From IMG/VR virus record IMGVR_UViG_3300042090_001067, positions 1 through 37,883 of that record: a stretch of 37,883 bases of DNA; one strand, written 5' to 3'. Source of the DNA: a virus. Both the position numbers and the translations under genes were made by a program. Below the pieces are notes generated by a model. It ran no database searches and had not been told where the DNA came from. It saw only the letters and a program-made list of their open reading frames with translations. Below are positions 4,763 to 17,059 of the stretch, piece by piece; the stretch's first letter is position 1, and each line of letters opens with the position of its first letter.

Positions 4763-4936
4763 GATTTTGGATGCATAAGCCGAATGATCCAGTGTTAGAA
4801 TAGGGTACTCCCTAACGCACAATCTTTTAAAAAAAAGCTTTTTTTAATCCAATGTCTCAACAAAATCGTTCTTTTCCCACTTGACATAATGTAACAACAT
4901 GTCTTAGACTTATAAGCAACAACCAAGGGGGTTTTT
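4763..4936. other. Intergenic region: hairpin, A/T palindrome and promoter
   Basis: No gene is seen. TAGGG/CCCTA (4801-4805 with 4810-4814) forms a 5-base stem with a 4-base loop. A run of eight A, GC and seven T (4829-4845) follows and could give a T-tract for weak termination. The promoter at 4881-4910 then starts the next transcript. Confidence 0.5.
4881..4910 (+). promoter_or_regulatory. Predicted promoter for the membrane protein/methyltransferase operon
   Basis: There is a perfect -35 box, TTGACA (4881-4886). The best -10 at proper spacing is TAGACT (4905-4910, 18 bases). TATAAG at 4911-4916 is closer to consensus but 24 bases away. The AAGGGGG ribosome site and ATG at 4937 follow directly. 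Confidence 0.5.
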
Positions 4937-5128
4937 ATGGACTGGACACACGTTTTAGGAATTGTATTGGGTAACGTAGCTTTTGTCATACCTTTGTTTT
5001 TATGGAACCGAGCTGAGTCTCGCGCTGACATAAGACACATCATGACTATCATTGAAACTATTCAAAAAGAAATGAAAGACTTTCATGGCCGTCTTTGCGC
5101 TATTGAAGAACGAAATAAAGGAAAATAA
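4937..5128 (+). CDS. Small membrane protein with MKDFHGRLC tail (copy 1)
   Basis: A 63-residue protein with one N-terminal membrane segment (about 5-24, VLGIVLGNVAFVIPLFLW), a short charged helix, and the tail MKDFHGRLCAIEERNKGK (46-63). The tail is shared with the genes at 5142 and 16638 and the remnant at 16582. With the N-terminus in the membrane, the conserved tail would probably face the cytoplasm, given the positive charges just after the segment. Size and topology allow a holin-like or membrane-anchored regulatory role, but nothing proves it. Confidence 0.75.
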   Translation: MDWTHVLGIVLGNVAFVIPLFLWNRAESRADIRHIMTIIETIQKEMKDFHGRLCAIEERNKGK

Positions 5129-5141
5129 GAAGGAGTTTTTT

Positions 5142-5375
5142 ATGGATGCAGCAACATTATTAACAGCAGCAGGAACAGTGATCACAATCGTCGGGTCAAA
5201 CATTGCTTTAATCGGATGGCTACGTGCTGACATGAAATCTTTTGAAACAAAGATTGACGGTTGGAAAGAACAATTTAGCCGAGACATGGCTTCTTATAAA
5301 GAGGAAGTCAATAAAGAGATGAAAGACTTTCATGGTCGCCTTTGCTCTATTGAAGAACGAAATAAAGGAAAATAA
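5142..5375 (+). CDS. Small membrane protein with MKDFHGRLC tail (copy 2)
   Basis: A 77-residue protein from the ATG at 5142, which has AGGAG seven bases upstream; a longer in-frame start inside the previous gene lacks one. The membrane segment is at about 3-25 (LLTAAGTVITIVGSNIALIG), then a charged helix, then MKDFHGRLCSIEERNKGK (60-77). The last 57 bases are nearly identical to those of copy 1, while the N-terminal halves are unrelated, as if the tail had been duplicated or swapped onto new anchors. It is followed after two bases by the methyltransferase. Confidence 0.75.
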   Translation: MDAATLLTAAGTVITIVGSNIALIGWLRADMKSFETKIDGWKEQFSRDMASYKEEVNKEMKDFHGRLCSIEERNKGK

Positions 5376-5377
5376 GG

Positions 5378-6118
5378 ATGTTAAATGGCTTGGATCTTTT
5401 TTCAGGAACAGGAGCCGTGTCCCTCGCACTCAGGGAATGGGTTAGAACAATCGCCTATTGCGAAATCGACGCCTACTGTCAAGGAGTCTTGCTCAGTCGT
5501 ATGGGAACAAAAGAATTACGATACGCTCCAATTTGGGATGACATCAGAACTTTATCTCAATACGATTTACCAAGGTGCATTGATATTATCTATGGAGGAT
5601 TTCCATGCCAGGACATTAGCGTTGCAGGACATGGAAAAGGATTGGGTGGAGAGCGAAGCGGACTTTTTTTCGAGATCGCTCGCTTGGCCAAAGAAATCAA
5701 GCCCAAATTTCTATTCCTTGAAAATGTCAGTGCCATTTCAAGGAGAGGTGGATCTACCATTGCCAGAATCATTGCCGACATGGGGTATGATTGTCGATGG
5801 TGTACTATATCCGCTCAAGGACTTATGGCACCGCAAAAACGCAGTAGATGGTTTCTATTGGCCCACTCCAACAGCGAGCCAAGCTGGCAAACCTATAAGA
5901 GAACCATCTCCGACTCGAAAAAGCAAGAAACACGGATACGACCTTGCGGACAAAATTGGAGAGATGGATTCGGAGCTTATTGGAAAAAAAATAAACAGCC
6001 AGTTCTTGGAATGGATTATGGGAATTCCTTTGAAGTGGACAGAGCTAGAGCCTTGGGCAACTCAGTTTGTCCTCAGCAAGCAAGAGAAGCTTTTAAAATC
6101 CTAATGGGAATAAAATGA
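5378..6118 (+). CDS. DNA (cytosine-5) methyltransferase
   Basis: A 246-residue C5 methyltransferase, transferring a methyl group from S-adenosylmethionine to cytosine in a target site; probably shields phage DNA from restriction. Motif I is DLFSGTGAVSLAL (6-18), motif IV is GGFPCQDIS with nucleophile Cys77, motif VI is ENV (115-117), motif VIII is QKRSRWFLLAHS (153-164), and motif X is RARALGNSVCPQQA (222-235). All catalytic motifs are present, but the stretch between VIII and X is only about 58 residues, so the target-recognition domain is short. A second protein-like frame overlaps it (5385-6104). The stop overlaps the zinc-ribbon gene. Confidence 0.9.
   Translation: MLNGLDLFSGTGAVSLALREWVRTIAYCEIDAYCQGVLLSRMGTKELRYAPIWDDIRTLSQYDLPRCIDIIYGGFPCQDISVAGHGKGLGGERSGLFFEIARLAKEIKPKFLFLENVSAISRRGGSTIARIIADMGYDCRWCTISAQGLMAPQKRSRWFLLAHSNSEPSWQTYKRTISDSKKQETRIRPCGQNWRDGFGAYWKKNKQPVLGMDYGNSFEVDRARALGNSVCPQQAREAFKILMGIK
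5385..6104 (+). CDS. Overlapping +1-frame protein inside the methyltransferase gene
   Basis: A 239-codon open frame shifted +1 from the methyltransferase. Its second half reads like a phage protein family I recall beside or within C5 methyltransferases: SLPTWGMIVDGVLYPL (129-144), YWPTPTASQAGKP (158-170) and FLEWIMGIPLKWTELE (207-222). The motif pairs arise from the same bases as methyltransferase motifs VIII and X. It may be a true overlapping gene, the target of a frameshift, or a by-product of conserved motif codons. No ribosome site dedicated to its start is obvious. Confidence 0.35.
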   Translation: MAWIFFQEQEPCPSHSGNGLEQSPIAKSTPTVKESCSVVWEQKNYDTLQFGMTSELYLNTIYQGALILSMEDFHARTLALQDMEKDWVESEADFFSRSLAWPKKSSPNFYSLKMSVPFQGEVDLPLPESLPTWGMIVDGVLYPLKDLWHRKNAVDGFYWPTPTASQAGKPIREPSPTRKSKKHGYDLADKIGEMDSELIGKKINSQFLEWIMGIPLKWTELEPWATQFVLSKQEKLLKS

Positions 6119-6354
6119 ATTTTACATGCGAAAATTGTGGGTTTTATTTCAATAATAATAATCTTACAATAGATTATTGCCCTCAATGCGAAGAAAAAAA
6201 ACAATATATACTAAAATTTGTTAAAGAAGCGGAGGAGTTCAAAAAATGTCAAAAATATGCAGAAATGCCCTTAGACTTAAGAGAATTTTTTAATGAAGAA
6301 TTAGGAAGATTCAAGTTCGCATTAGGTGCATTTGATGGGAAAAAATATGAATAA
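6115..6354 (+). CDS. Small zinc-ribbon protein
   Basis: A 79-residue protein. CENCGF (5-10) and CPQC (22-25) form a four-cysteine zinc ribbon at the N-terminus. The rest is a charged helix ending in FKFALGAFDGKKYE. The ATG overlaps the methyltransferase stop (ATGA), so they are co-translated. The specific function is unknown; small zinc ribbons in phages often bind nucleic acid or host proteins. Confidence 0.65.
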   Translation: MNFTCENCGFYFNNNNLTIDYCPQCEEKKQYILKFVKEAEEFKKCQKYAEMPLDLREFFNEELGRFKFALGAFDGKKYE

Positions 6355-6369
6355 AGGAAAGCGAATCGG

Positions 6370-6636
6370 ATGAATACAAAGGATATTAATGAAATCTTTC
6401 GTAAGCCTTTACTTGAAAAGCTGCAAGACATGCAAAAGGGACTAGAGGGGAATATAGACTTTATTTATCAAAACTCCCTCGTATGCGCTGATAAATGCGA
6501 TATGGTTGAATATGCAAGGGCGAACGGACAAATATGGGGACTCCAATTTGCAAAGGGAATGCTCGACGCGATTCTAAGATTAGAAGATAGAAGGGTAATA
6601 TGGGACAAGGCAAAAGAGTCGGATACATCCGAGTAA
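6370..6636 (+). CDS. Hypothetical helical protein
   Basis: An 88-residue acidic, predominantly helical protein with two cysteines (VCADKCDMVEYARANGQIWG, about 38-57). A GGAAAG site lies before the ATG. The C-terminal 37 bases overlap the recombinase start in another frame. No family recognised; its size and place suggest a co-transcribed accessory gene. Confidence 0.6.
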   Translation: MNTKDINEIFRKPLLEKLQDMQKGLEGNIDFIYQNSLVCADKCDMVEYARANGQIWGLQFAKGMLDAILRLEDRRVIWDKAKESDTSE

Positions 6637-7220
6637 GCACAACAGACCAAAATCCAGACCGGCAGCTTTCAGGTGTCGAAGTGGATAAAAAGTTTATTGA
6701 ATATGCTTCGGGTAAAAATATAAAAAGGCCGCAACTTATTGCGCTACTGGACTACGTACGCGAAGACGACATTGTAGTAGTCCACAGCATGGACAGGCTA
6801 GCCAGGAACGTAAAAGAGCTGCTGGATTTAATCGACCAACTCAATGCTAAGAAAGTGGCAGTCCACTTCGTAAAAGAAAAAATGGAGTTCACCGGAGCAA
6901 AAGATCACATGTCCAGAATGATCTTAACGGTTATGGGGGCTATTGCAGAATTAGAAAGGCAGCAGATACTGGAAAGGCAACGCGAGGGGATTGCTGAGGC
7001 GCAAAAGAAAGGAAAGTATCGGGGAGGTAAAACAAAAATGACTCCCGATAAGATAAAGCAACTTGAAGAGATGCTAAAAACACGAGAACCTAAAAGTAAA
7101 ATTGCATTAGGACTTGGAATTTCTCGATTTACCCTGTATAGATATTTAGAAAAAATTCAACCAGGAGCAGCAGCAGATGAAAAACGAGAAGCGGAAAGAG
7201 TTATACAGCCGAGAGTTTAA
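6600..7220 (+). CDS. Serine recombinase, resolvase/invertase family
   Basis: A 206-residue small serine recombinase. The N-terminal catalytic domain has VGYIRVSTTDQNPDRQ with nucleophile Ser13 and the conserved MDRLARN (64-70). The long E-helix follows (110-135), then a helix-turn-helix near 160-185 (SKIALGLGISRFTLYRYL). The length and C-terminal HTH fit Hin/Tn3-type invertases and resolvases, not large phage integrases. Likely jobs are resolving genome multimers or flipping a segment; I could not identify paired crossover sites. AAGGG lies before the ATG. It overlaps both neighbours. Confidence 0.9.
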   Translation: MGQGKRVGYIRVSTTDQNPDRQLSGVEVDKKFIEYASGKNIKRPQLIALLDYVREDDIVVVHSMDRLARNVKELLDLIDQLNAKKVAVHFVKEKMEFTGAKDHMSRMILTVMGAIAELERQQILERQREGIAEAQKKGKYRGGKTKMTPDKIKQLEEMLKTREPKSKIALGLGISRFTLYRYLEKIQPGAAADEKREAERVIQPRV

Positions 7221-7695
7221 ACTCAAGTTTATGGGTTATGGAGAATGGTTGGATGAGCCCGACGAGGTTACCTTTGAATATAAAGGAATAAAGTGTCTAG
7301 TTTTTCGCGTAGTAAAACGCGAGATTTACTGCCCAACCGAGGCTTATTTCGGAGGACACCTTTGCGGTTATATACTCCTACCTCCTGAACATCCTATGTG
7401 TGGGAAAGAATGCTGGGATGAGTTTGAGTGTCATCAAGGCGTAACTTTTCACGATGGGACAGATGAAGTCTGGATTCTTGGGTTTGATTGCGGCCATTTA
7501 GGCGACTTAATCCCTACGATGGAACACATGCACCGGACAATTCCTGAGCTTATAGAAATAAATAAAGCTTTTTCCACACCGGAGGGTTTTGAAAAACACC
7601 CTTGGTTTCACCCCACATATAAAAACGTTGACTTTTGCATCAAGGAATGTAAGTCCCTAGCCAAACAAGCCGCAAAGATGATGGTGCCAGCATGA
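7177..7695 (+). CDS. Conserved phage protein, paralog 1 (GHLCGYI family)
   Basis: A 172-residue protein. Conserved features are GEWLDEPDEVTFEYKGIKC (23-41), GGHLCGYILLPPEHPMCGK, the GVTFHDG turn and FDCGHLGDLIP. These match a widespread phage and prophage family without known function, whose invariant His, Cys and Asp residues suggest a metal-binding fold. It begins inside the recombinase 3' end with AGGAG seven bases upstream. A diverged second copy lies at 8208, so the gene was duplicated and the copies are separated by two truncated genes. Confidence 0.75.
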   Translation: MKNEKRKELYSREFKLKFMGYGEWLDEPDEVTFEYKGIKCLVFRVVKREIYCPTEAYFGGHLCGYILLPPEHPMCGKECWDEFECHQGVTFHDGTDEVWILGFDCGHLGDLIPTMEHMHRTIPELIEINKAFSTPEGFEKHPWFHPTYKNVDFCIKECKSLAKQAAKMMVPA

Positions 7696-7847
7696 GCTGC
7701 TTCGACTGCAAAAAGATGCACCCAAAGTGCAAGGCTCAGTGTTGCGGTGTCGTTCCTATCCCTAAAGAAACTTACGCTAACAACAAACACAAAATAGTTA
7801 GGACACCCCATGATCTTGTCGATGCTGGTACGGACGTTAAAAGATGA
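7692..7847 (+). CDS. Truncated YkgJ-like cysteine-cluster protein
   Basis: A 51-residue protein with CFDCKKMHPKCKAQCCG at its start, the CxxC...CxxxCC pattern of YkgJ-type zinc/iron cluster proteins. YkgJ proteins are normally over 80 residues with further cysteines downstream; here the reading frame stops early, inside the next gene. It overlaps the previous stop and the next start (both ATGA). It is either a minimal functional cluster protein or the 5' remnant left by a deletion. Confidence 0.55.
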   Translation: MSCFDCKKMHPKCKAQCCGVVPIPKETYANNKHKIVRTPHDLVDAGTDVKR

Positions 7848-8218
7848 AGATTGATTGCGTAGCAGACTTGCACGGTTTCTATCCTGAAACTCCAGGGGGA
7901 GACGTTCTTATTGTAGGCGGCGACTTAACAAAGTCTAACAGGCAGTGGCAATACCTAGAATTTAGGAACTGGCTACGCGCCCAGGATTACAAGCACCGTA
8001 TTCTAGTCTGCAGAAAAGCCTTTGGAAAACATTTGATATTAGTTGCAAAGGCTTTACACGATATTGAATGGGTTGATAGCTGTGATTATGGAGAAGGAGA
8101 CGAGGTTAAAGCCATAATGAAAGTTGTAAATCCTAAAGATGTATTAAACTCATCGATTCATGACGCAAAATCTATAATAAAAACATTACAGGAGATAATT
8201 GCTCTTAATGAAAAATGA
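7844..8218 (+). CDS. Chimeric protein: phosphoesterase N-terminus fused to a second phage domain
   Basis: A 124-residue protein. Residues 1-55 match the start of calcineurin-like metallophosphoesterases (MKIDCVADLHGFYPETPGGD, then VGGDLT). The sequence departs just where the essential GNHD motif should follow HRILV. Residues 58-124 resemble another small phage family (HDIEWVDSCDYGEGDE). Without GNHD and later histidines it cannot be an active phosphoesterase. A deletion joining two genes in frame is the simplest origin. Translation is coupled to its neighbours. Confidence 0.65.
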   Translation: MKIDCVADLHGFYPETPGGDVLIVGGDLTKSNRQWQYLEFRNWLRAQDYKHRILVCRKAFGKHLILVAKALHDIEWVDSCDYGEGDEVKAIMKVVNPKDVLNSSIHDAKSIIKTLQEIIALNEK

Positions 8219-8717
8219 AACACGACAGACCTTATATGATCGACAATTCAAAATAAAACATCTTGGATACGGAGAATGGATTGACGAGCCAGATCGTATC
8301 GAATTCGAATACAAGGGCATAAAATGCTTGGTGATTAGGATTTGTAAGAGAGAACCATGTGCCCATGAAGAGGCCTGGTTTGGTGGTCATCTTTGCGGCT
8401 ATATTTTCCTTCCAAAAGAACATCCACTTTACGGAAAAGATATTGATGAAGTGGATTTACCTTGTCATTTTGGTGTGACTTTTGCAGAAAAAACTCAAGA
8501 AGGCCATATGATTGGTTTTGATTGTGCCCATTCAGAAGACTTAATTCCTTCTATGGTTCAATTGGGAAAACGCTTCTCGATTTCTGAAATTTTCCCTGTA
8601 CCCGAAAATCTCAAAGATCACCCTTTGTTTAAACCTATTTATCGAAATATGTCCTATTGCATTAAACAATGCAAAAGAATGGTAAGAGAGGCTCTGAAAA
8701 TGACAGAAACTGTATGA
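8208..8717 (+). CDS. Conserved phage protein, paralog 2 (GHLCGYI family)
   Basis: A 169-residue protein, clearly homologous along its length to the product at 7177: GEWIDEPDRIEFEYKGIKC, GGHLCGYIFLPKEHPLYGK, FGVTF and FDCAHSEDLIP. ATG 8208 was chosen; an in-frame TTG three codons earlier sits too close to the AGGAG (8190-8194). The first 11 bases overlap the chimeric gene. Last gene of the rightward arm, ending at the terminator at 8725-8746. Confidence 0.75.
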   Translation: MKNETRQTLYDRQFKIKHLGYGEWIDEPDRIEFEYKGIKCLVIRICKREPCAHEEAWFGGHLCGYIFLPKEHPLYGKDIDEVDLPCHFGVTFAEKTQEGHMIGFDCAHSEDLIPSMVQLGKRFSISEIFPVPENLKDHPLFKPIYRNMSYCIKQCKRMVREALKMTETV

Positions 8718-8724
8718 AAAGAAA

Positions 8725-8746
8725 GGATGGGATTTTAACCCCATCC
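8725..8746. terminator. Bidirectional hairpin between convergent operons
   Basis: GGATGGG (8725-8731) pairs with CCCATCC (8740-8746) across an 8-base loop. On the minus strand it is followed by TTTCTTTTC, a usable T-tract for the leftward arm. On the plus strand no T-run follows. It lies between the two convergent gene arms. Confidence 0.6.
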
Positions 8747-8821
8747 TCGCTCACTTCAACACGTACCCAAGGACATCACACAACTTTATTTTTTTCTCTT
8801 CTTTGCCAAAATCGCAGAAGG

Positions 8822-8959
8822 TTAACAGCCTTTCTTTTTCATGGCTTTTTTCATGCCCATTTTCTCATGCTTCTTATCATTTTTCTTGTCCATCTTTTCT
8901 AGCCTTTCCATGCCCTTATCGATGACTTTTTTTTCTTTTTTGATTAACTTGTCCATCAT
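8822..8959 (-). CDS. Small Lys/Met-rich protein
   Basis: A 45-residue very basic protein (start MMDKLIKKEKKVIDKGMERL, end KKKGC), almost all helix-forming residues. Its ATG overlaps the stop of the gene upstream on the minus strand (8956). Similar short Lys-rich helical proteins sit among phage structural genes and may associate with DNA in the capsid; function unknown. Last gene of the leftward arm. Confidence 0.55.
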   Translation of the reverse strand: MMDKLIKKEKKVIDKGMERLEKMDKKNDKKHEKMGMKKAMKKKGC

Positions 8960-9099
8960 TTTGCCTTTTTTCTTGGTATTTTTACGCCGGATTTTCTGGC
9001 CGTCTCCAATGCAATTGCTACAGCCTGTTTATAGGGATGAATTTTTTCTTCCGTTTTAATGTTTTTTCCAATATTTTTCTTGCCTGGCAACAATGGCAT
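8956..9099 (-). CDS. Small basic conserved phage protein
   Basis: A 47-residue protein with KNIKTEEKIHPYKQAVAIAL followed by ETARKSGVKIPRKKAK. This closely follows a short conserved phage protein pattern (KQAVAIALxxARKxGxKIPKKK) that I recall next to structural genes, without known function. Four-base overlap with the next gene, and nine bases after the lipoprotein gene. Confidence 0.7.
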   Translation of the reverse strand: MPLLPGKKNIGKNIKTEEKIHPYKQAVAIALETARKSGVKIPRKKAK

Positions 9100-9107
9100 A
9101 CAGATAC

Positions 9108-9302
9108 TCACTTCGGTAATGGTTGATTGTTTTTCACGTCTACAGAGATGTTTACATCTGTTTGTTTTTGGATAGACTCTTTGCTCACCGAGACCCTTAT
9201 GGCTTCATCGTCGGCAATATCTTCAGCTGCTTGATATAATTGTGGAAGTGTGTTGCAGGCCATCAGAGAGGTTAGCGCAGAAATATAAATAAGCTTATTC
9301 AC
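9108..9302 (-). CDS. Small lipoprotein, possible outer-membrane spanin-like protein
   Basis: A 64-residue protein from a GTG at 9302 with GGGGG five bases upstream (a TTG four codons earlier lacks a site). The N-terminus VNKLIYISALTSLMAC is a lipoprotein signal with lipobox LMAC, giving a mature peptide of about 48 acidic-to-neutral residues ending in VKNNQPLPK. This suggests export and anchoring, and hence a Gram-negative-type envelope. Phage-coded small lipoproteins are often Rz1-type o-spanins or exclusion proteins; no partner i-spanin is identified. Confidence 0.6.
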   Translation of the reverse strand: MNKLIYISALTSLMACNTLPQLYQAAEDIADDEAIRVSVSKESIQKQTDVNISVDVKNNQPLPK

Positions 9303-9317
9303 CCTTACCCCCAAGTA

Positions 9318-10109
9318 ATGTTTATGGTATTCGTGGCTTTTCTCATGTGTATCATTTCACGTCTTTCAGCGCAACAACATCACCTCTCTATATGCACGAT
9401 TTTTCGTGATGACGCCAAATATCTTCCTGAATGGATAGATTTCCATCGTAGCCAGGGTGTAGACCATTTTTACCTATATGACAATTTGAGTAATGATGAT
9501 CCTGAATACGTGCTAAAAGATTATATAAAAGACGGCTCCGTAACGCTAGTCAAATGGCCTTATGAATCTCTTAACCAAGCGGATTGGAATAAAATACAAT
9601 GTAGCGCATATATGCATTGTGTGAAAAAATACGGCCACAACAGTTTGTGGATGGCTTTTTTAGATACGGATGAATTTCTTTTTTGCCCAAACAAATCAGG
9701 CATTGGAAAATTTCTTTTTGGTCTCGACAAGAAGATAAAATCTATAAGCGCCTTTTGGCGTATGTATGGGACAGGTAATTTGAAAATACCCGATGGAGGG
9801 ATGCTTAGAAAGCATTTATTGTATAGAGCCGAAGATGATAATGGAGCACACGTACTCGCGAAGCCCATTGCACAGACAAAATATATCAAGGACATCATAA
9901 ATCCACATCATGTCATATTAAAAAAAGGCCGACACCTCAATATGAGCCCTGATGCCATAAGAATAAATCATTATTGGTCTAGAGACCTGGAATTCTTTCA
10001 TAACGTAAAGTTGTCTAGGCGACAAAAATGGTATCTGAACCGGCAAGAGGAAATTGATCGAGAATCATGGCTAAACGATGTTTACGATCCCATACTTAGA
10101 GACTTTTAG
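9318..10109 (+). CDS. Glycosyltransferase, GT92/DUF23-like, with N-terminal hydrophobic segment
   Basis: A 263-residue protein. Residues 1-18 are hydrophobic and end in LSAQQ, like a signal peptide or membrane anchor. The rest is a GT-A-type transferase: LSICTIFRDDAKYLPEWIDF (23-42), YLYDNLSNDDP, the metal-binding LDTDEF (115-120), then INHYWSRDLEFF near residue 216. It is a lone plus-strand gene beside the tail-fibre genes, with its stop overlapping the beta-helix fibre by four bases. It may alter host surface glycans or phage fibres. No good ribosome site is seen. Confidence 0.75.
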   Translation: MFMVFVAFLMCIISRLSAQQHHLSICTIFRDDAKYLPEWIDFHRSQGVDHFYLYDNLSNDDPEYVLKDYIKDGSVTLVKWPYESLNQADWNKIQCSAYMHCVKKYGHNSLWMAFLDTDEFLFCPNKSGIGKFLFGLDKKIKSISAFWRMYGTGNLKIPDGGMLRKHLLYRAEDDNGAHVLAKPIAQTKYIKDIINPHHVILKKGRHLNMSPDAIRINHYWSRDLEFFHNVKLSRRQKWYLNRQEEIDRESWLNDVYDPILRDF

Positions 10110-11416
10110 CCTACTCTTGTTCCCGAAATTCGACATGATACAGTCAATGACCCAGTTGTAAAAACACCCTCTCCAATAGCATACACTGTCGTTGTAGATG
10201 ATAACGTTATGCGGAAGGACGGGACTGCCAATGAAAACGCATAACCAGTTACACCAGCACTCTGTGCATAGGTTTTTTGGTCTCCATAATTTCCCGCGAA
10301 TGTATTATTTGTGGTGCTGATTCCCAAAATGGCATACGTACTGATTCCGGTATATGCAAAAACGGCCGCACATGTTACGTCCCAAATTCCTGGACTCAAT
10401 GATATGCTTATAATTGTTGCTGGGGTTCCAGTCGATGGGGTACCCGACCCTTGATATGCTGTAATGTATTCTCCAATATATCCTGCACTAGGGGCGGTGC
10501 CCTGTGTCAGGCCAGATGCGGCTCCCCCTGACTGCGTAGTTACATTGCTGAAATGTGAACTTCCCGTATAAAGAACGCCTTCACTTTGAAATGTGCCGCC
10601 ACCTGTTATGCAGTTCGTATTGGACGATGAAATCTCGCATAAAGTACAGCCAACGTTGGTTCCGCTACCTATTGAAAGCGCCGATGCCGTTCCAGAGGCT
10701 ATTGAACAGGTTGCAATTGAATTTGCCCCTGTTCCCGCAGTAGTAATGCAAGTGGTGTTTATTGCAGACGTGTTAAATTGACAAAAAGCGCCATTAATAA
10801 CGCCTGATGAAGAAGTGGATAAGGCACAGGTTAAGTTGGAAAATGATAGCGATACGATTCCAGCAGAATTGCTACTCGCCGTTGTGCTGGAGCCAGAATT
10901 GTCTAAATTACAATAACGAAATTTCAATGTTCCACCACTGGACATGGTGTAGACGGAGATCCCCGTGGTCCCCAGATTCATAGAGCATAAAGACAGTGTG
11001 ATCGATGATGACCCAGAAGAACTGCTATAGTTGATTCCGGTATTGTTTGAGAGATTGAGATAGCAGTTTGTGAGATTCACGACGCTAGCGGCGCTTCCAG
11101 TCACTGCTACAACGTATGTGCTATTCGTCTGCATGTTTAGATTTGATAAATTTACGGTATAGGCGCCCGTTACCGTGAATTCACCGTCTATCACTACCTG
11201 ACTAGTAGAATCCCCCACCTGTCCGCATATATTTATGTTCGAACCTACCGTATTGTTTTCGGTATAAGTTCCAGGCATGATGAAAATCGTGTCCCCACTT
11301 GAAGCGTCCGACAATGCGCCTGAAATACTTGTATGCGTTCCTTCTCCGGCAACAGTGCTGACAACCCATTTTGCAGGTGAAAAGTAATTGATAGCATTGG
11401 AATTTTTGCCCGCCAT
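10106..11416 (-). CDS. Tail fibre/appendage with right-handed beta-helix
   Basis: A 436-residue protein. After a head region, ALSDASSGDTIFIMPGTYTE (34-53) is the classic start of pectate-lyase-like beta-helices. Serial short strands follow with stacked Asn, Ser, Thr and Cys (about 55-290). The C-terminal domain (about 310-436: GIWDVTCAAVFAY, then TTTVYAIGEGVF) matches a common phage appendage tip. Expected to be a trimeric receptor-binding or capsule-degrading fibre; no catalytic residues are evident. Thirteen or more cysteines are unusual for a fibre. Confidence 0.7.
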   Translation of the reverse strand: MAGKNSNAINYFSPAKWVVSTVAGEGTHTSISGALSDASSGDTIFIMPGTYTENNTVGSNINICGQVGDSTSQVVIDGEFTVTGAYTVNLSNLNMQTNSTYVVAVTGSAASVVNLTNCYLNLSNNTGINYSSSSGSSSITLSLCSMNLGTTGISVYTMSSGGTLKFRYCNLDNSGSSTTASSNSAGIVSLSFSNLTCALSTSSSGVINGAFCQFNTSAINTTCITTAGTGANSIATCSIASGTASALSIGSGTNVGCTLCEISSSNTNCITGGGTFQSEGVLYTGSSHFSNVTTQSGGAASGLTQGTAPSAGYIGEYITAYQGSGTPSTGTPATIISISLSPGIWDVTCAAVFAYTGISTYAILGISTTNNTFAGNYGDQKTYAQSAGVTGYAFSLAVPSFRITLSSTTTVYAIGEGVFTTGSLTVSCRISGTRVG

Positions 11417-11436
11417 TATTTTTCTCTATTTTATGG

Positions 11437-11922
11437 TTACGTTACGGTAAAAGTACCGATCACTTGCGTTGCAATCCAATTCGTGTCAGTGCTTCTATAG
11501 ACAAGCGTCACTGAATCACCATTAAAATTACTTGCTGCTGTGCCAGCTGAGGCGCTTTTTGCTTTTCCTATTTGTATAGTCTGTCCCGTATTTGCTGTAA
11601 TCGTTAAAATTCCACTTGCTGAATCTACCGCGAACGCTATTGTATCGCCTTGTGCTGGAGATGCCGGCAATGTTGCTGTCGCTGTAGCGGTAACAAAATA
11701 ACCGTTGTTTTTAGCTGCGTTAAAGTTCGTCGCTTCATCTGTCCATGTACCGACTATTGAACCCGTAGTGGCAATAGTCGTATTGCCGGCTGTACCACTC
11801 GCATTCGTTAACGATATACCCGACCCAGCCTGAAAGGTTCGACCGGTAAAAGTTGCTGTTCCGTCAAAAACTACATAACCCGATGCCGTTATATTTAGGG
11901 CATTACCTGGTGTGGCGACCAT
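11437..11922 (-). CDS. Appendage protein, paralog A
   Basis: A 161-residue Gly/Ala/Thr-rich beta protein. Its C-terminal half (a GDTIAF segment, then ITANTGQTIQIGKAKSA, then GDSVTLVYRSTDTNW) parallels that of the next gene (11935-12450). It is probably a small appendage, head-fibre or tail-knob subunit carrying the same domain. AAAGGAG lies upstream of the ATG. It sits among tail-fibre genes. Confidence 0.6.
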   Translation of the reverse strand: MVATPGNALNITASGYVVFDGTATFTGRTFQAGSGISLTNASGTAGNTTIATTGSIVGTWTDEATNFNAAKNNGYFVTATATATLPASPAQGDTIAFAVDSASGILTITANTGQTIQIGKAKSASAGTAASNFNGDSVTLVYRSTDTNWIATQVIGTFTVT

Positions 11923-11934
11923 ATTGAAACTCCT

Positions 11935-12450
11935 TTAATTTAAGCTGAGAGTGCCTTGTGGGCTGAAACTCTGAAAAATATTTGAACCTACATAAACAAA
12001 TTCTACAAAATCACCTACTGTATTAGAGATCAAATACCCCGAGCCCGCAGTAGTAGAGGCCGATCCGACAATCATCTGTTGACCACCATTTTGATTAATC
12101 TGGAAACGGCTTGTCGTGGAAGCGATGATGAATGTATCCCCAAAATTTGGGGCAAGCGGCAAAATGAAAGTTACTAAGTTGGTCCCCTGACAGCTATATC
12201 CATTTTCTGCAATGATTTGTATTGGATTAGGTGGAGAAATACTCGTGACGAGATTCCAAGTGAACCCAGAAGATGTCACCCTTATAGTGATAACTTGTCC
12301 GGTCGTATCGACAGTCACCCCTCCTTCGCCTACAATGTCGATTATATGATTGACCGCAGAAGCTCCAGGGCCTGTATTCCCCTGGAAAATTATAGGCACA
12401 TTTCCTGGTATATTCCCATCGGCGATATTGATTATGCCGGCTTGGCTCAT
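11935..12450 (-). CDS. Appendage protein, paralog B
   Basis: A 171-residue beta-rich protein with a collagen-like turn near QGNTGPGASAVNHIIDIVGE and a C-terminal domain paralogous to the neighbour's (GDTFIIASTTSRFQINQNGG, then GDFVEFVYVGSN). Its start overlaps the stop of the coiled-coil gene by four bases. Probably a structural appendage; no enzymatic motif. Confidence 0.6.
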   Translation of the reverse strand: MSQAGIINIADGNIPGNVPIIFQGNTGPGASAVNHIIDIVGEGGVTVDTTGQVITIRVTSSGFTWNLVTSISPPNPIQIIAENGYSCQGTNLVTFILPLAPNFGDTFIIASTTSRFQINQNGGQQMIVGSASTTAGSGYLISNTVGDFVEFVYVGSNIFQSFSPQGTLSLN

Positions 12451-13376
12451 GATGAAGCCTTATCTAACTCCATTTTCTTGAAAAGCAACGATAGGTTTTC
12501 CATCTTCTTCTCCAAAATCGCAATCTGCTGGCTGCAATTATTGGATTTCAAAATCGCATTTTTGCTATCGAATTCCATGGCTTCCATCTTTTTATAGATC
12601 TCATTTTTTGCTAGATCTATCAGGGGGATTGGATTTTTAGCTTCATTCTTCGATTGCAAAATTTTCGAGTCCATCCATTCCGATAAATTATCGAAAGAGG
12701 TTCTTAATTCATTCTTTAACGAATCATGAGAAGACTGACATTTTTCTTCTATTGCGCTCATCTTCGAATTTTGAGAACCGATCATTCGGTTAGATTCGGA
12801 GATTTTATTTTCTACGGTTTCCAATGCCAGCTTTATATTTTCGGAAATTCTTTCCTGTTTTCCTGGTAGCGATTCGAGATATTTCAATCTTTGGAAGATA
12901 TTTTCATGTGCTTCTTTTGAATATTTCGCGTGAGTTTCCAGGTCGTGTTTTTTTACTACAAGATTTTCAATCTCACCGTGAGAATTCAAGATTTTCTCAA
13001 GTCTCTTTTCCACATCATCGAATTTTTTGATGAATTTAGATGACGAATCATGATGGGACAGTTCCCTTTCCACGGATTCGGACAGTTCTTTTTTTATTGC
13101 TTTACACTCTAATTGATTTTCCTTCATGTTTTCCTGAAGAAAACTTCTAAGAGATTTCAATTCTTGGCTAAATTGATCGAACTGCTTCTCACAATGTTCA
13201 ACGATTTCTTTCTTTAAAATTTGGATAAGTGGCTTGACGGAATTGAATTCAGAGATTACTTGTTCGTATTCCTGAACTTTTTTCCGTATAAATGGCCATA
13301 GGCGTTCCAATTCCGATATCCTATCTGAATCAGATTGCTGGGAATCTAGCAAATTGAAAAATTTTCCGTCGCTCAT
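12447..13376 (-). CDS. Long coiled-coil structural protein
   Basis: A 309-residue protein, nearly all helical with heptad-like spacing from about residue 15 to the end (ISELERLWPFIRKKVQEYEQ at the start). It is acidic and low in Gly and Pro. Placed between fibre genes and overlapping neighbours at both ends (four bases each), it is probably a fibre stalk, chaperone or connector. No family recognised. Confidence 0.55.
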   Translation of the reverse strand: MSDGKFFNLLDSQQSDSDRISELERLWPFIRKKVQEYEQVISEFNSVKPLIQILKKEIVEHCEKQFDQFSQELKSLRSFLQENMKENQLECKAIKKELSESVERELSHHDSSSKFIKKFDDVEKRLEKILNSHGEIENLVVKKHDLETHAKYSKEAHENIFQRLKYLESLPGKQERISENIKLALETVENKISESNRMIGSQNSKMSAIEEKCQSSHDSLKNELRTSFDNLSEWMDSKILQSKNEAKNPIPLIDLAKNEIYKKMEAMEFDSKNAILKSNNCSQQIAILEKKMENLSLLFKKMELDKASS

Positions 13377-13720
13377 GCGTCACCATTCCCGTATATGACT
13401 TCAACATACACAGCCCCTTTAGTCGGGGTGCTACTTTGTCTAACATAAATGATTGTGCCTACGGGAAGGGCAAAAATCCCATCACCTAGACCGCCGCTTT
13501 TATTAGTCGTTAGATCGAACAATTTGAATGAATTTGCCGCGATGAACAATTTGTCATTGACCCCATCATTGCTGATAAACATGTCGCCATCGGTGTTATT
13601 CGTAAAACAAACAAGCCTAGCAGCATGAGTAAAAGCCGTCCCAACAGCAGCATATGAAACTGATGTCGATCCATATGCTATAGAACGCAATGTATCAAGT
13701 TGAACAATCTGTGACCACAT
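13373..13720 (-). CDS. Small structural protein
   Basis: A 115-residue protein from the ATG at 13720, preferred because AGAGG lies eight bases upstream and the preceding gene stops at 13722; a start nine codons earlier lies inside that gene. Beta-rich: TSVSYAAVGTAFTHAARLVC, then NNTDGDMFISNDGVNDKLFI, ending GAVYVEVIYGNGDA. This pattern recurs in small phage head or tail decoration proteins. Exact role unknown. Confidence 0.6.
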   Translation of the reverse strand: MWSQIVQLDTLRSIAYGSTSVSYAAVGTAFTHAARLVCFTNNTDGDMFISNDGVNDKLFIAANSFKLFDLTTNKSGGLGDGIFALPVGTIIYVRQSSTPTKGAVYVEVIYGNGDA

Positions 13721-13721
13721 A

Positions 13722-13922
13722 TCATGCCTCTTTATCGTTTTCACCAACCGCCGTCGCTATTTGCGGCGACGGTTGATGTTGCGTTTTAATAAGGGCTAAA
13801 TACTGCAAAAATTCTAATAGCATTTTTTCGGCGACATCGATAGTGATGCCATTTTCTAAAATCCAATGGCTGCTTTTCCCATCGATTTTCGATAAGAACC
13901 TAGTGACGTTCTCCATTTCCAT
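13722..13922 (-). CDS. Small hypothetical protein
   Basis: A 66-residue helical protein (IDVAEKMLLEFLQYLALIK near 28-46). An AGGGGC site precedes the ATG, and its stop lies one base before the next ATG. It follows the long fibre gene; possibly a fibre chaperone or assembly factor by position only. Confidence 0.5.
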   Translation of the reverse strand: MEMENVTRFLSKIDGKSSHWILENGITIDVAEKMLLEFLQYLALIKTQHQPSPQIATAVGENDKEA

Positions 13923-13934
13923 TTTTTGCCCCTA

Positions 13935-16355
13935 TTAGATAGGTCTCACAATAATATATGAGAAGGTTGAGGTATCGCCAGTTTGAGTCGAACCAGGAGT
14001 TCCTAAAATCAAACTTGTTACCGTAAAGCTCGTACCATTTGAAATCGTATATGTCAATTCACCCAACGTGGTCGATGCATTAGACCCCGTTCTCGTGATC
14101 AAAATCACATCACCAGTCGCAATATTAGTATTATTTATAGTAGCCATTCCGCTAGCTAAGGTCCCTACGCCAATAAAGTTTGTGGCTGCAAAACTTGCGC
14201 CCTTAATCCCGATATATTGTGCTGCTGTTTCAAGTAAAAGAGGGCCTCCGACGACTTGAACACCGCCTGAGCCTGCATATAACGTGGTTGTGCTCGTAGA
14301 ATGATTCGATCCGACCTTGGTCGTTTGTGTAGCCGCGCCCGTTCCTGTCCCGATATTGATGGTATTAGCCGCAACGTCTGCACCGATATTTACGGTTCCT
14401 CCACCTCCAACAACAGCGAAGGTGTTACCCGAAGCAATTGTTTGGGTGATATTACCGCCAGAAGTTATCGCAATAGCTCCAGCAGCACTATTCCCTATAT
14501 TGACAACAGCAGGAGATGCTCCCGTGGCTAGATTTATTGTTTGCGTTCCACCTACTGATGTTCCTGTAAAGACATTGAACGTGGATGTGCCGGTTGTGAA
14601 CACGCCGCCTAGGGCGTTTATCACCCCGTTTGCTCCGGTAACAGTATTCGCAATATTAACAGTTGAGGCGCCGGCTCCAGAAGCAATTGCCACCGTAGAA
14701 GTAGTCGAAGAAGAACCTAATGTGATAAGCCCTGTTTGTGCTGCGGCTCCAATGGTGATAACTTGAGCAGCATTTCCACCTAGACCGATGCCTATAGTCC
14801 CACTAGAACCGGATTTTAGGGTAATATTACCACCGCTTGAGCTTCCGATATTCGTCACATGTGCGACAGCACCTGTCCCAATATTCACGGTTCCGGCGGT
14901 TGTTGCCGCGGTCGAACCAAAAATATTGGCCACTAACGTTCCACCGGAGGCATTTCCATTGAATAAGTTAAATGTACAGGTTCCAGATCCTATGGTGCCG
15001 CTAAATAAGCTAATTGTATCGGTGGCGCCGGCTATAGCACCATTGAAGACCTGGAAGTTTTGGCTTCCGGTGCTATTTGCTCCTCCAAGAAATTGAGCCG
15101 ATTGTGTGCCCGCTGAAGCGACGCTATTCATGACCGCAAGAGTCTGGTTAGCCCCTGGCGTAGCGCCGTTAAGGATGTTTACAGTCGCTGTTCCACTAGC
15201 CGATGCACCATTGGCGATACTAGTTACTTGTGCTGCTGTGTTGACACCATTTTGGATCAGAACGCTATTTGCAGCAGTGCTAGAACCTAGAGTGATCGTT
15301 CCTGTTTGCGCAGTTGCACCGATAAGAATCGTCGCTCCTACAGCGCCGGCAATGACAGTATTCCCGCCCGATCCTGATTGTAGCGTAAGTGATGCACTGG
15401 CGGTAACAGAGCCTACAGTGACCGCATTAGCCGCGGAATCTGTACCGATATTTATTTGATTTCCACCCCCAACTACAGAAAAATTACCCGATGGAACATC
15501 GAAAGTAATCGCACCTGATCCGGAAGAATTTCCGATTGTTGTATTCGCATTACCCGTATGATTGATTAGAGTAGTGCCTACGACAGTCAAGGCTCCCGTA
15601 GTGGCCGCTCCAACCATCGTAATGCCGCCTGAGCCTGCATTCAATGTAAGACTGGAAGTTCCGCTTGTAGAACCTACGACGACGGTGTTGCTGGCCGAAT
15701 CATTGGCAATGTCTACAGTGTTACCACCACCCGTTAAGGTGAAATTTCCTGCTCCTACAGCCACGGTGATGGCTCCAGAAGACCCACCAATTGTCGTGGC
15801 CGCTGTTCCAGAGGCGTTTATAGAAGCGGTTCCTACTGAAGTTAATGTTCCAAACGAAGCATTGAAAACTCCGTTAGCAATAGCATATGCAAGAGAACTG
15901 GGAACGATCGCATAGTTTGCAGAAACTACTCCCCCAGAGGCCTGTGCGTTTGTGGCGAGATAAGTGATTCCTTGATTGGTTGTGGTCGCCGGTGTGCCTC
16001 CTGAGCTTGCATACGTGCTGACAAACGTATAGACATCGTTAGCGTTAGCAACAACAGCAGCAGGATAAACAGGGGCCGCTCCAGTCGTCCAGGTGGCATA
16101 CGGGGATAATTTAACTGTTCCATATGTAGAGGCGGTGGCGGGTTCCCCACTGCCAGCGAGCCAGTTTCCAGCTCCTGTTGTCTCATAAATCTCCGGAGGG
16201 CTTACAGAATTGTCCTGCCATCTAGTGCCAGGATTATAAATATCTTGAGAAGTGGGTGGTCTTTGTGCATATCCTATAAACTGAGGATATACAAAAGCGT
16301 CTACGCCTGTTGCAAATGGGGTTCCCTGCGCGGTATTGCCTAATGAAGCTGTCAT
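13935..16355 (-). CDS. Long Gly/Ser/Thr/Ala-rich fibre protein
   Basis: An 806-residue protein from the ATG at 16355, chosen because GGAG lies five bases upstream (inside a hairpin, see 16361-16420); a start seven codons earlier lies upstream of that site. Residues 1-90 form a distinct head with YAQRPPTSQDIYNPGTRWQD. From about 165 to 690 it is built of short beta repeats of the type VxIGxxx and GNFTLxGGGNxVxI. The C-terminal 100 residues (ASTTLGELTYTISNGTSFTV) are a tip domain. Probably the main tail or head fibre. Almost no charged residues in the repeats. Confidence 0.7.
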   Translation of the reverse strand: MTASLGNTAQGTPFATGVDAFVYPQFIGYAQRPPTSQDIYNPGTRWQDNSVSPPEIYETTGAGNWLAGSGEPATASTYGTVKLSPYATWTTGAAPVYPAAVVANANDVYTFVSTYASSGGTPATTTNQGITYLATNAQASGGVVSANYAIVPSSLAYAIANGVFNASFGTLTSVGTASINASGTAATTIGGSSGAITVAVGAGNFTLTGGGNTVDIANDSASNTVVVGSTSGTSSLTLNAGSGGITMVGAATTGALTVVGTTLINHTGNANTTIGNSSGSGAITFDVPSGNFSVVGGGNQINIGTDSAANAVTVGSVTASASLTLQSGSGGNTVIAGAVGATILIGATAQTGTITLGSSTAANSVLIQNGVNTAAQVTSIANGASASGTATVNILNGATPGANQTLAVMNSVASAGTQSAQFLGGANSTGSQNFQVFNGAIAGATDTISLFSGTIGSGTCTFNLFNGNASGGTLVANIFGSTAATTAGTVNIGTGAVAHVTNIGSSSGGNITLKSGSSGTIGIGLGGNAAQVITIGAAAQTGLITLGSSSTTSTVAIASGAGASTVNIANTVTGANGVINALGGVFTTGTSTFNVFTGTSVGGTQTINLATGASPAVVNIGNSAAGAIAITSGGNITQTIASGNTFAVVGGGGTVNIGADVAANTINIGTGTGAATQTTKVGSNHSTSTTTLYAGSGGVQVVGGPLLLETAAQYIGIKGASFAATNFIGVGTLASGMATINNTNIATGDVILITRTGSNASTTLGELTYTISNGTSFTVTSLILGTPGSTQTGDTSTFSYIIVRPI

Positions 16356-16360
16356 ATTGT

Positions 16361-16420
16361 CTCCGAATGATTTCAATTAAAGTTTATTGTGAAAAATATG
16401 CTGTAACCATCATTACGGAG
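16361..16420 (-). promoter_or_regulatory. Leader hairpin sequestering the fibre gene ribosome site
   Basis: On the minus-strand RNA, the arm from 16409-16420 pairs with the arm from 16361-16371 (CTCCG, then AATGAT, with ATCATT, then CGGAG): 11 pairs with one bulged base and a 37-base loop. The 3' arm contains the GGAG ribosome site five bases before the ATG at 16355. Folding would block initiation. Confidence 0.5.
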
Positions 16421-16441
16421 GCGAATCGTACCTAGCAGCCC

Positions 16442-16535
16442 ATGGAGAGCGACTCCATTTACGCTGATCTAAATATGACCACTTATTTTTTTAAATGCAA
16501 AGAAATTTGTTGGATTTTGGGGATCGTCATATTAT
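16442..16535 (+). promoter_or_regulatory. Hairpin and predicted promoter of the small membrane-protein island
   Basis: ATGGAG/CTCCAT (16442-16447 with 16453-16458) forms a 6-base stem with a 5-base loop. TTGTTG (16507-16512) and TATTAT (16530-16535), 17 bases apart, form a plausible promoter pointing to the genes at 16582-17059, which oppose the surrounding late genes. Confidence 0.4.
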
Positions 16536-16581
16536 TTCCTTATCGTTGAATCGAATGCGGTGGAAAGAGTATCCTTAAGAA

Positions 16582-16638
16582 ATGAAAGATTTCCATAGGC
16601 GCTTATGTGCTATCGAAGAAAGAAATAAGGGCAAATAA
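16582..16638 (+). pseudogene. Truncated MKDFHGRLC-family remnant (copy 4)
   Basis: Eighteen codons reading MKDFHRRLCAIEERNKGK and a stop: the tail motif of the family with Gly changed to Arg. A TAA stop occurs two codons before the ATG, at the place where copy 1 has a lysine codon, so the anchor part is lost. The stop overlaps the ATG of copy 3 (TAATG). It could be translated as an 18-residue leader peptide coupled to copy 3, or be a decayed gene. Confidence 0.6.
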
Positions 16639-16850
16639 TGACTCAAGAAAAAATACAATGGCAACCTCTGGTAGAGATGGCAATCGTATTGGTGACAATA
16701 CTTGGTAGTACTATTCCCCTGTATCTTCATACAGATTCAAAGATGGAAGCTTCGTCAGCAAGAACACAGGCGGTGCTTGAGGGGATTCGTCAGGACATGA
16801 AAGACTTCCATGGACGTCTGTGTGCCATCGAAGAAAGGAATAAAAAATGA
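16638..16850 (+). CDS. Small membrane protein with MKDFHGRLC tail (copy 3)
   Basis: A 70-residue protein with a membrane segment near 12-30 (VEMAIVLVTILGSTIPLYL), a charged linker, and MKDFHGRLCAIEERNKK (54-70). Codons of the motif differ at many third positions from copies 1 and 2 while the residues are kept, so the motif is under selection. Its start overlaps the remnant's stop and its stop overlaps the next start. A membrane role, perhaps in lysis, is possible. Confidence 0.7.
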   Translation: MTQEKIQWQPLVEMAIVLVTILGSTIPLYLHTDSKMEASSARTQAVLEGIRQDMKDFHGRLCAIEERNKK

Positions 16851-17059
16851 TCATATTGATAGTAGCATTTATATTTATATCTTCCTTGATAAGCGTGTCT
16901 ACTGAAGCTAAATATGCGGCTGAGATCGCTAAAATTAATTACATATTGAAAATCGAAGAAGATCGTGAGTTGTTAAGGAAGCTTGGAAGTCTATCTCCGC
17001 AGCAGATGGATAAATTCATATTGGATTGTGAAAAATGGCTGGGCAAAAGTATCAACTGA
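16847..17059 (+). CDS. Small membrane or exported protein
   Basis: A 70-residue protein: residues 1-18 are strongly hydrophobic (MIILIVAFIFISSLISVS), then a charged helical part (IAKINYILKIEEDRELLRKL). Four-base overlap with copy 3 indicates joint translation. The layout, a short anchor with a periplasmic coiled segment, resembles phage spanin or holin partners, but there is no family match. Its end overlaps the KTSC gene on the other strand by eight bases. Confidence 0.6.
   Translation: MIILIVAFIFISSLISVSTEAKYAAEIAKINYILKIEEDRELLRKLGSLSPQQMDKFILDCEKWLGKSIN

Follow-up and report, generated by a model that had tools for sequence, protein, structure and literature searches.

The window, which is the whole stretch of DNA analyzed here, is a 37,883-base IMG/VR phage record that carries four copies of a short peptide tail (IETIQKEMKDFHGRLCAIEERNKGK). 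The methionine codons of these tails were confirmed at positions 5072, 5319, 16582, and 16797, as the first-pass annotation had placed them, and the four copies gave the consensus [ED]MKDFH(G/R)RLC(A/S)IEERN. When copy 1 was used as the query against the window, exactly these four places were recovered (E = 6e-42, 4e-13, 8e-11, and 4e-8), so that a chance recurrence was excluded. Copies 1, 2, and 4 were verified as intact genes, each encoding a single membrane segment and carrying the tail at the 3′ end (Table 1). The start of copy 2 was assigned to the ATG at 5142, which follows an AAGGAG, and not to 5085. About two promoter-like sites of the quality of that listed in Table 1 are expected by chance in the stretch, so it was regarded as weak. 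In copy 3, an in-frame TAA GAA is located just upstream of the tail, in which R takes the place of the usual G. An ORF of 24 residues with a membrane segment precedes it, out of frame with the tail, and the two are probably the remains of a tandem copy with a broken anchor. The end of copy 3 overlaps the start and ribosome-binding site of copy 4, and the orphan tail may hence have been kept. For every intact gene of the window, a separate close relative exists in other phages; copy 1 is 85% identical to a relative in L005, the anchor of copy 2 recurs in L083, and that of copy 4 is of the type found in L035. Small membrane-protein genes often come after the family genes in relatives.

Table 1. 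Features of the two tail-bearing loci in the window.
Feature	Position	Strand	Basis or remark
Promoter-like site TTGACA-18-TAGACT before copies 1 and 2	4881–4910	+	Consensus scan, 10/12 matches; weak
Copy 1, 63 aa: anchor MDW..FLWNRAESRADIRH and tail EMKDFHGRLCAIEERNKGK	4937–5128	+	AlphaFold helix; relative
Copy 2, 77 aa: anchor MDAATLLTAAGTVITIVGSNIALIGWLRADMKSFE and tail	5142–5375	+	Ribosome-binding site AAGGAG, 5130–5135
Probable anchor remnant of copy 3, MTTYFFKCKEICWILGIVILFPYR, then stop	16475–16549	+	Three-frame reading; suggestive only
Copy 3, orphan tail MKDFHRRLCAIEERNKGK	16582–16638	+	Stop overlaps start of copy 4 (TAATG)
Copy 4, 70 aa: anchor IQWQPLVEMAIVLVTILGSTIPLYLHTDSK and tail	16638–16850	+	Same anchor type in L035
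Next gene, 70 aa, N-terminal membrane segment, without such a tail	16847–17059	+	Overlaps copy 4

Profile searches detected a P22-type portal (PF16510, E = 1.9e-68) and a terminase (phrog_2, E = 2.1e-47) in the window, which together identify it as a tailed phage. Further profile matches were obtained for a YqaJ exonuclease, a resolvase, a C5 DNA methylase, a ParB-type protein, and a GT92 glycosyltransferase. Structural genes occupy the minus strand and early genes the plus strand. Copies 1 and 2 are located in the early block, ahead of the methylase gene, and copies 3 and 4 form a plus-strand island, which has a tail-fibre-like gene on one side and virion-type genes on the other, all of them on the minus strand. 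No match to an endolysin profile was obtained for the window or for genes sampled from two relatives (loci L269, L279, and L280), which might reflect a host lacking a conventional cell wall. Another plus-strand gene amid the minus-strand late genes (9318–10109) corresponds by inspection to the GT92 match (PF01697, 7.7e-21). Two similar 172-aa proteins encoded near each other (7177–7695 and 8199–8717) are probably the two phrog_2164 matches.

A single IMG/VR scan of viral contigs gave 110 relatives, and the motif is present in more than 110 uncultivated phage stretches besides the window. When KDFHGRLC alone was used as a DNA pattern, which holds no anchor information, at least 118 stretches were obtained. 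All of the 118 intact distinct ORFs among the matches listed for this pattern are 53–106 aa long, carry the motif 13–35 residues from the C-terminus, and possess a hydrophobic N-terminal segment, though a weak one in 14 of them. This indicates that the tail is confined to the architecture of small anchored proteins. Between one and eight copies were present in each of 49 near-complete phage records of 34–43 kb, all 49 having been picked because they hold the family. The genes fall into 165 blocks, of which 128 are single genes and 37 consist of two to six tandem members. Fifty of the blocks resemble copies 3 and 4 in being bordered by tail-fibre-like and virion-type genes of the opposite strand, early-type genes were detected within 2.5 kb of 50 of 219 family genes, and copies adjoin recombination and replication genes in many phages.

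Profile searches of 55 members against Pfam, PHROGs, and NCBIfam gave no family match and no domain with an assigned function; the tail did not appear in these databases as part of a longer known domain. Many multi-copy relatives were found instead of the one non-modular gene that could have been encountered. A PADLOC scan of the same 55 members gave just two weak single-member matches and no family, and there was no match in the PDB by sequence or in cultured phages by tblastn. The tiny single-helix membrane proteins hence constitute a large, widespread, so far unnamed, and apparently undescribed family, which belongs with the already known small phage membrane proteins and is not a new class of system. 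In a plasmid search, the Bdr coiled coils of Borrelia were rejected as coil similarity, and genome matches in L219 and L216 were set aside as coil matches. The plasmid search otherwise gave only a weak anchor-type ORF on the Simkania negevensis plasmid pSn (L208, 2998–3354), whose product has an MDWIQALTIIG anchor and a long coil of repetitive sequence. An HTH gene directly precedes this ORF and a phage Bet gene lies nearby; the ORF is possibly a distant relative on a chlamydial plasmid.

The swapping of anchors over a conserved tail, which had been suggested from the window alone, was supported more strongly by the relatives, where the same anchors also bear a second kind of tail. Anchor pairs with normalized similarities of 0.95, 0.87, and 0.82 bear different tails. 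Near-identical anchors in different phages end in either CAIEERN or CSLEERN on the one hand and ERQDAEFK...HLMxHH or similar on the other, the sequences parting directly after DFHGRL. Other tails observed on such anchors were CTLEERYLQMMQRILE and RxDxLYEMFIDLLKE. The N-termini had been described as unrelated, of which the divergence was borne out but the unrelatedness was not, as the normalized similarity between paralogous anchors within a locus (median 0.20) exceeds the 95% level of shuffled sequences (0.14). The anchor-to-tail distances take all values modulo 7, which indicates that no fixed phase is kept between anchor and tail. We are highly confident of this architecture and of its modularity.

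The earlier reading that synonymous differences reflect selection on the motif agrees with the window tails, which differ pairwise by 3–7 synonymous and 1–2 non-synonymous codons of 16. For 194 members, pS and pN of the tail were 0.94 and 0.13, where conservation is inflated by members partly found via the motif, and synonymous saturation is independent of how the members were picked. From these codon comparisons, the conclusion that the tail is under protein-level selection, with its synonymous sites saturated and its protein fixed, holds. A different origin would be a selfish or recombination repeat, in which the tail is kept as DNA, either as a seam between tandem copies or as the ribosome-binding site of the next gene. 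Such a repeat would suit the tandem arrays with overlapping starts, the AAGGG that the orphan tail keeps together with the TAATG start of copy 4, and the switch directly after DFHGRL, but it conflicts with the saturation of synonymous positions over a fixed protein and with the predominance of single-gene blocks (128/165). Tail DNA identity was 0.77 within a locus and 0.73 between loci; the former is barely above the latter, so there is little homogenization of DNA. A DNA-level explanation was hence rejected on synonymous saturation, and we consider it highly improbable.

AlphaFold (55 sequences) predicted one helix for copy 1 as a single chain, spanning residues 3–61 with a pLDDT of 95. Within 15 residues of the membrane segment, the mean number of K/R was 0.75 on the N side and 2.86 on the C side, the C side being higher in 163 of 191 proteins. 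According to the positive-inside rule, the flank of a membrane segment rich in K/R lies on the cytoplasmic side, and the tail was therefore placed in the cytoplasm. Hydrophobic residues occupy a/d positions at −6, −2, +1, +5, and +8 relative to the D of DFHGRLC, a 4-3-4-3 spacing. In this heptad pattern, R4-L5-x-x-I8-E9 of the tail matches R(g)-h(a)-x-x-h(d)-E(e), which is the trimerization motif R-hxxhE of short coiled coils (PMC3653964). In 196 members, R4 was conserved at 97% and L5, I/L8, and E9 each at 100%, partly by construction of the pattern, and the core positions −2 and +1 are hydrophobic. The ERQDAEFK tail lacks R-hxxhE. Parallel trimers formed through this motif by GCN4p-M3, coronin-1, and ccbeta (PMC3653964) share with the tail R, L/I at a/d, and E in that register; in contrast to them, the tail adds fixed D, H, G, and C residues as well as a membrane tether, and its oligomer is a predicted one. 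A cytoplasmic coiled-coil oligomer formed via the tail is thus a model that we find reasonably likely.

D0, H2, G3, and C6 hardly vary either, and they are among the conserved residues that occupy nearly every face of the tail helix. Trimerization does not account for these four, whose conservation calls for a different explanation, e.g., a partner or a metal. The tail had been taken for a docking peptide, which would bind one common cytoplasmic protein of phage or host, with the anchor serving only to keep it at the membrane. The partner could then be brought to different membrane sites by different paralogues, for instance, to organize phage DNA replication in the manner of phi29 p16.7. That protein is composed of an N-terminal membrane segment, a coiled coil, and a folded DNA-binding domain at the end. 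It organizes membrane-associated DNA replication of the phage (PMC11476376). The family resembles p16.7 in being phage-encoded, located in an early region, and built of an N-terminal membrane segment followed by a coiled coil, but it has only a short tail, many paralogues, and no sequence match to p16.7. No DNA-binding domain of the p16.7 type was present at the C-terminus, since the proteins end at the tail as a single helix without a PDB match. The conserved residues outside the coiled-coil core and the recombination or replication neighbors in many phages would fit docking, although no candidate partner emerged, copies also lie in late-gene islands without replication neighbors, and conserved anchors that bear a second tail indicate that this one is not indispensable. 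A common partner is conceivable, but since the tail is, at the least, predicted to form a coiled coil as well and bears a trimerization motif, self-association is the simpler reading; docking as the main function appears rather unlikely to us.

The hosts were approached through the portal protein. Portal relatives with E values of 1e-62 to 1e-161 were detected in 9 of 234 Chlamydiota genomes. Among 296 Bacteroidota genomes there was one at 1e-46, in an already known contig, and one at 7e-8, and among 249 Pseudomonadota genomes there were four, the best at 3e-10. The Chlamydiota set was the phylum of a MAG labeled Chlamydiia and includes Simkania negevensis, whose plasmid ORF recurs at the same coordinates. 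The enrichment of the portal in Chlamydiota appears strong from these searches; several of the matches are whole phage-sized contigs of 35–40 kb in chlamydial bins, for each of which a binning error is possible. One Chlamydiota MAG contains solitary family genes beside ftsY-sucC-sucD and rpe-efp-accB-accC, and another contains a family gene in an 81-kb contig. The solitary copies are surrounded by housekeeping genes and look chromosomal. Two family contigs were binned elsewhere, namely in Bacteroidales and Alphaproteobacteria. Chlamydiota are probably the hosts of the family phages, with the link to MAGs made mostly via co-binned contigs, and the family would mark a tailed-phage lineage tied to this phylum by genome evidence. 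The well-known chlamydiaphages are microviruses, and our literature searches found no paper on tailed phages of Chlamydiota. The lineage in question, of tailed phages of 34–43 kb with P22-type portals, appears tied to Chlamydiota from several records (the window; G004:C19, G094:C388, G145:C2, G166:C1, and G227:C102).

The genes had also been proposed as holins. They might be holins, antiholins, or other lysis proteins, whose anchors form pores and whose cytoplasmic tails control assembly, with paralogues tuning the timing; if the host has no conventional wall, damage to the membrane could suffice for phage release. The size, the one membrane segment, and the tandem pairs are consistent with small holins, with which the family also shares the charged C-terminal end, and the only named PHROGs match of copy 1 is a holin (E = 0.21). 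Classical lysis genes may be absent, as neither the window nor the sampled genes of two relatives gave an endolysin profile; no family gene was found next to an endolysin in the same set. On the other hand, no holin profile of Pfam, PHROGs, or NCBIfam matched significantly, 0.21 being the best E value for the window genes and none appearing among the matches listed for the 55 members. In contrast to single-membrane-segment holins, the family occurs in up to eight copies per phage, lies at both early and late locations, and shares a conserved tail. Copies 1 and 2 lie in the early block beside the DNA methyltransferase gene, early-type genes neighbor 50 of 219 family genes as mentioned above, and solitary copies persist in chlamydial chromosomes, which is unlikely for a lethal protein. 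The holin assignment was hence left unsupported, and we judge a lysis function to be improbable.

The reading that we favor, with some confidence and leaving any exclusion role aside, is a modular family of single-pass membrane proteins with a coiled-coil tail in one tailed-phage lineage, probably infecting Chlamydiota. Each protein would be a continuous helix, in which an N-terminal anchor with its N-terminus outside is followed by a coil that varies in length and then by a C-terminal module in the cytoplasm. The most frequent of these modules, KDFHGRLCAIEERNKK, is predicted to have a short coiled-coil pattern with the trimerization motif. As judged from the sequences and the single-chain model, the proteins would probably assemble as membrane-anchored trimers or as oligomers mixed with paralogues, whose cytoplasmic coiled coils bring together anchors of different sequence. 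The anchor would set the membrane partner that is bound and the tail would join the oligomer, while the D, H, G, and C residues may dock one common partner. More speculatively, the phages of Chlamydiota might possess a combinatorial toolkit, in which anchors that evolve fast and a small set of fixed cytoplasmic tails are shuffled at the DFHGRL seam. During infection, several anchors, each for a different membrane partner, would thereby be brought into one common oligomer or docking site; we find this possible, though doubtful.

An alteration of the host membrane is the role that fits best with the accessory islands, the variation in copy number, the fast-changing membrane segments, and the lone copies kept by hosts. 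The genes could be accessory (moron-like) ones that alter the membrane of the infected cell, e.g., through superinfection exclusion or by blocking host membrane proteins. Like the superinfection-exclusion proteins of the Sie2009 type, HK97 gp15, and T4 Imm, they are separate, small, membrane-anchored accessory genes. Those proteins usually occur once per phage and have no shared swappable tail, whereas the present family is multicopy, shares such a tail, and matches no named PHROGs or Pfam family. Literature searches on small exclusion proteins gave nothing useful, and an exclusion-type role is offered as a tentative guess that is more likely wrong than right. Phages encode small membrane proteins in abundance, most of which are unexplained; the clear rule of a variable anchor and a shared swappable tail in hundreds of members makes this family a case whose function is testable with short peptides and chimeras.

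Two further groups of small proteins were observed around the family genes. The family genes are often adjoined by those of another family of small membrane proteins, which carry RxDxLYEMFIDLLKERK as their C-terminal tail (L043, L041, L005, L126, and others); forms with KHADTLAIIGVNLAI...MDTLHxMFYDLLKE were also seen, including in a Chlamydiota MAG (L223). Downstream of family genes in L047, L057, and L062, short proteins resemble the ends of SPFH/HflC proteins, with a membrane segment and AEVIRAKGVAEANKIIG.
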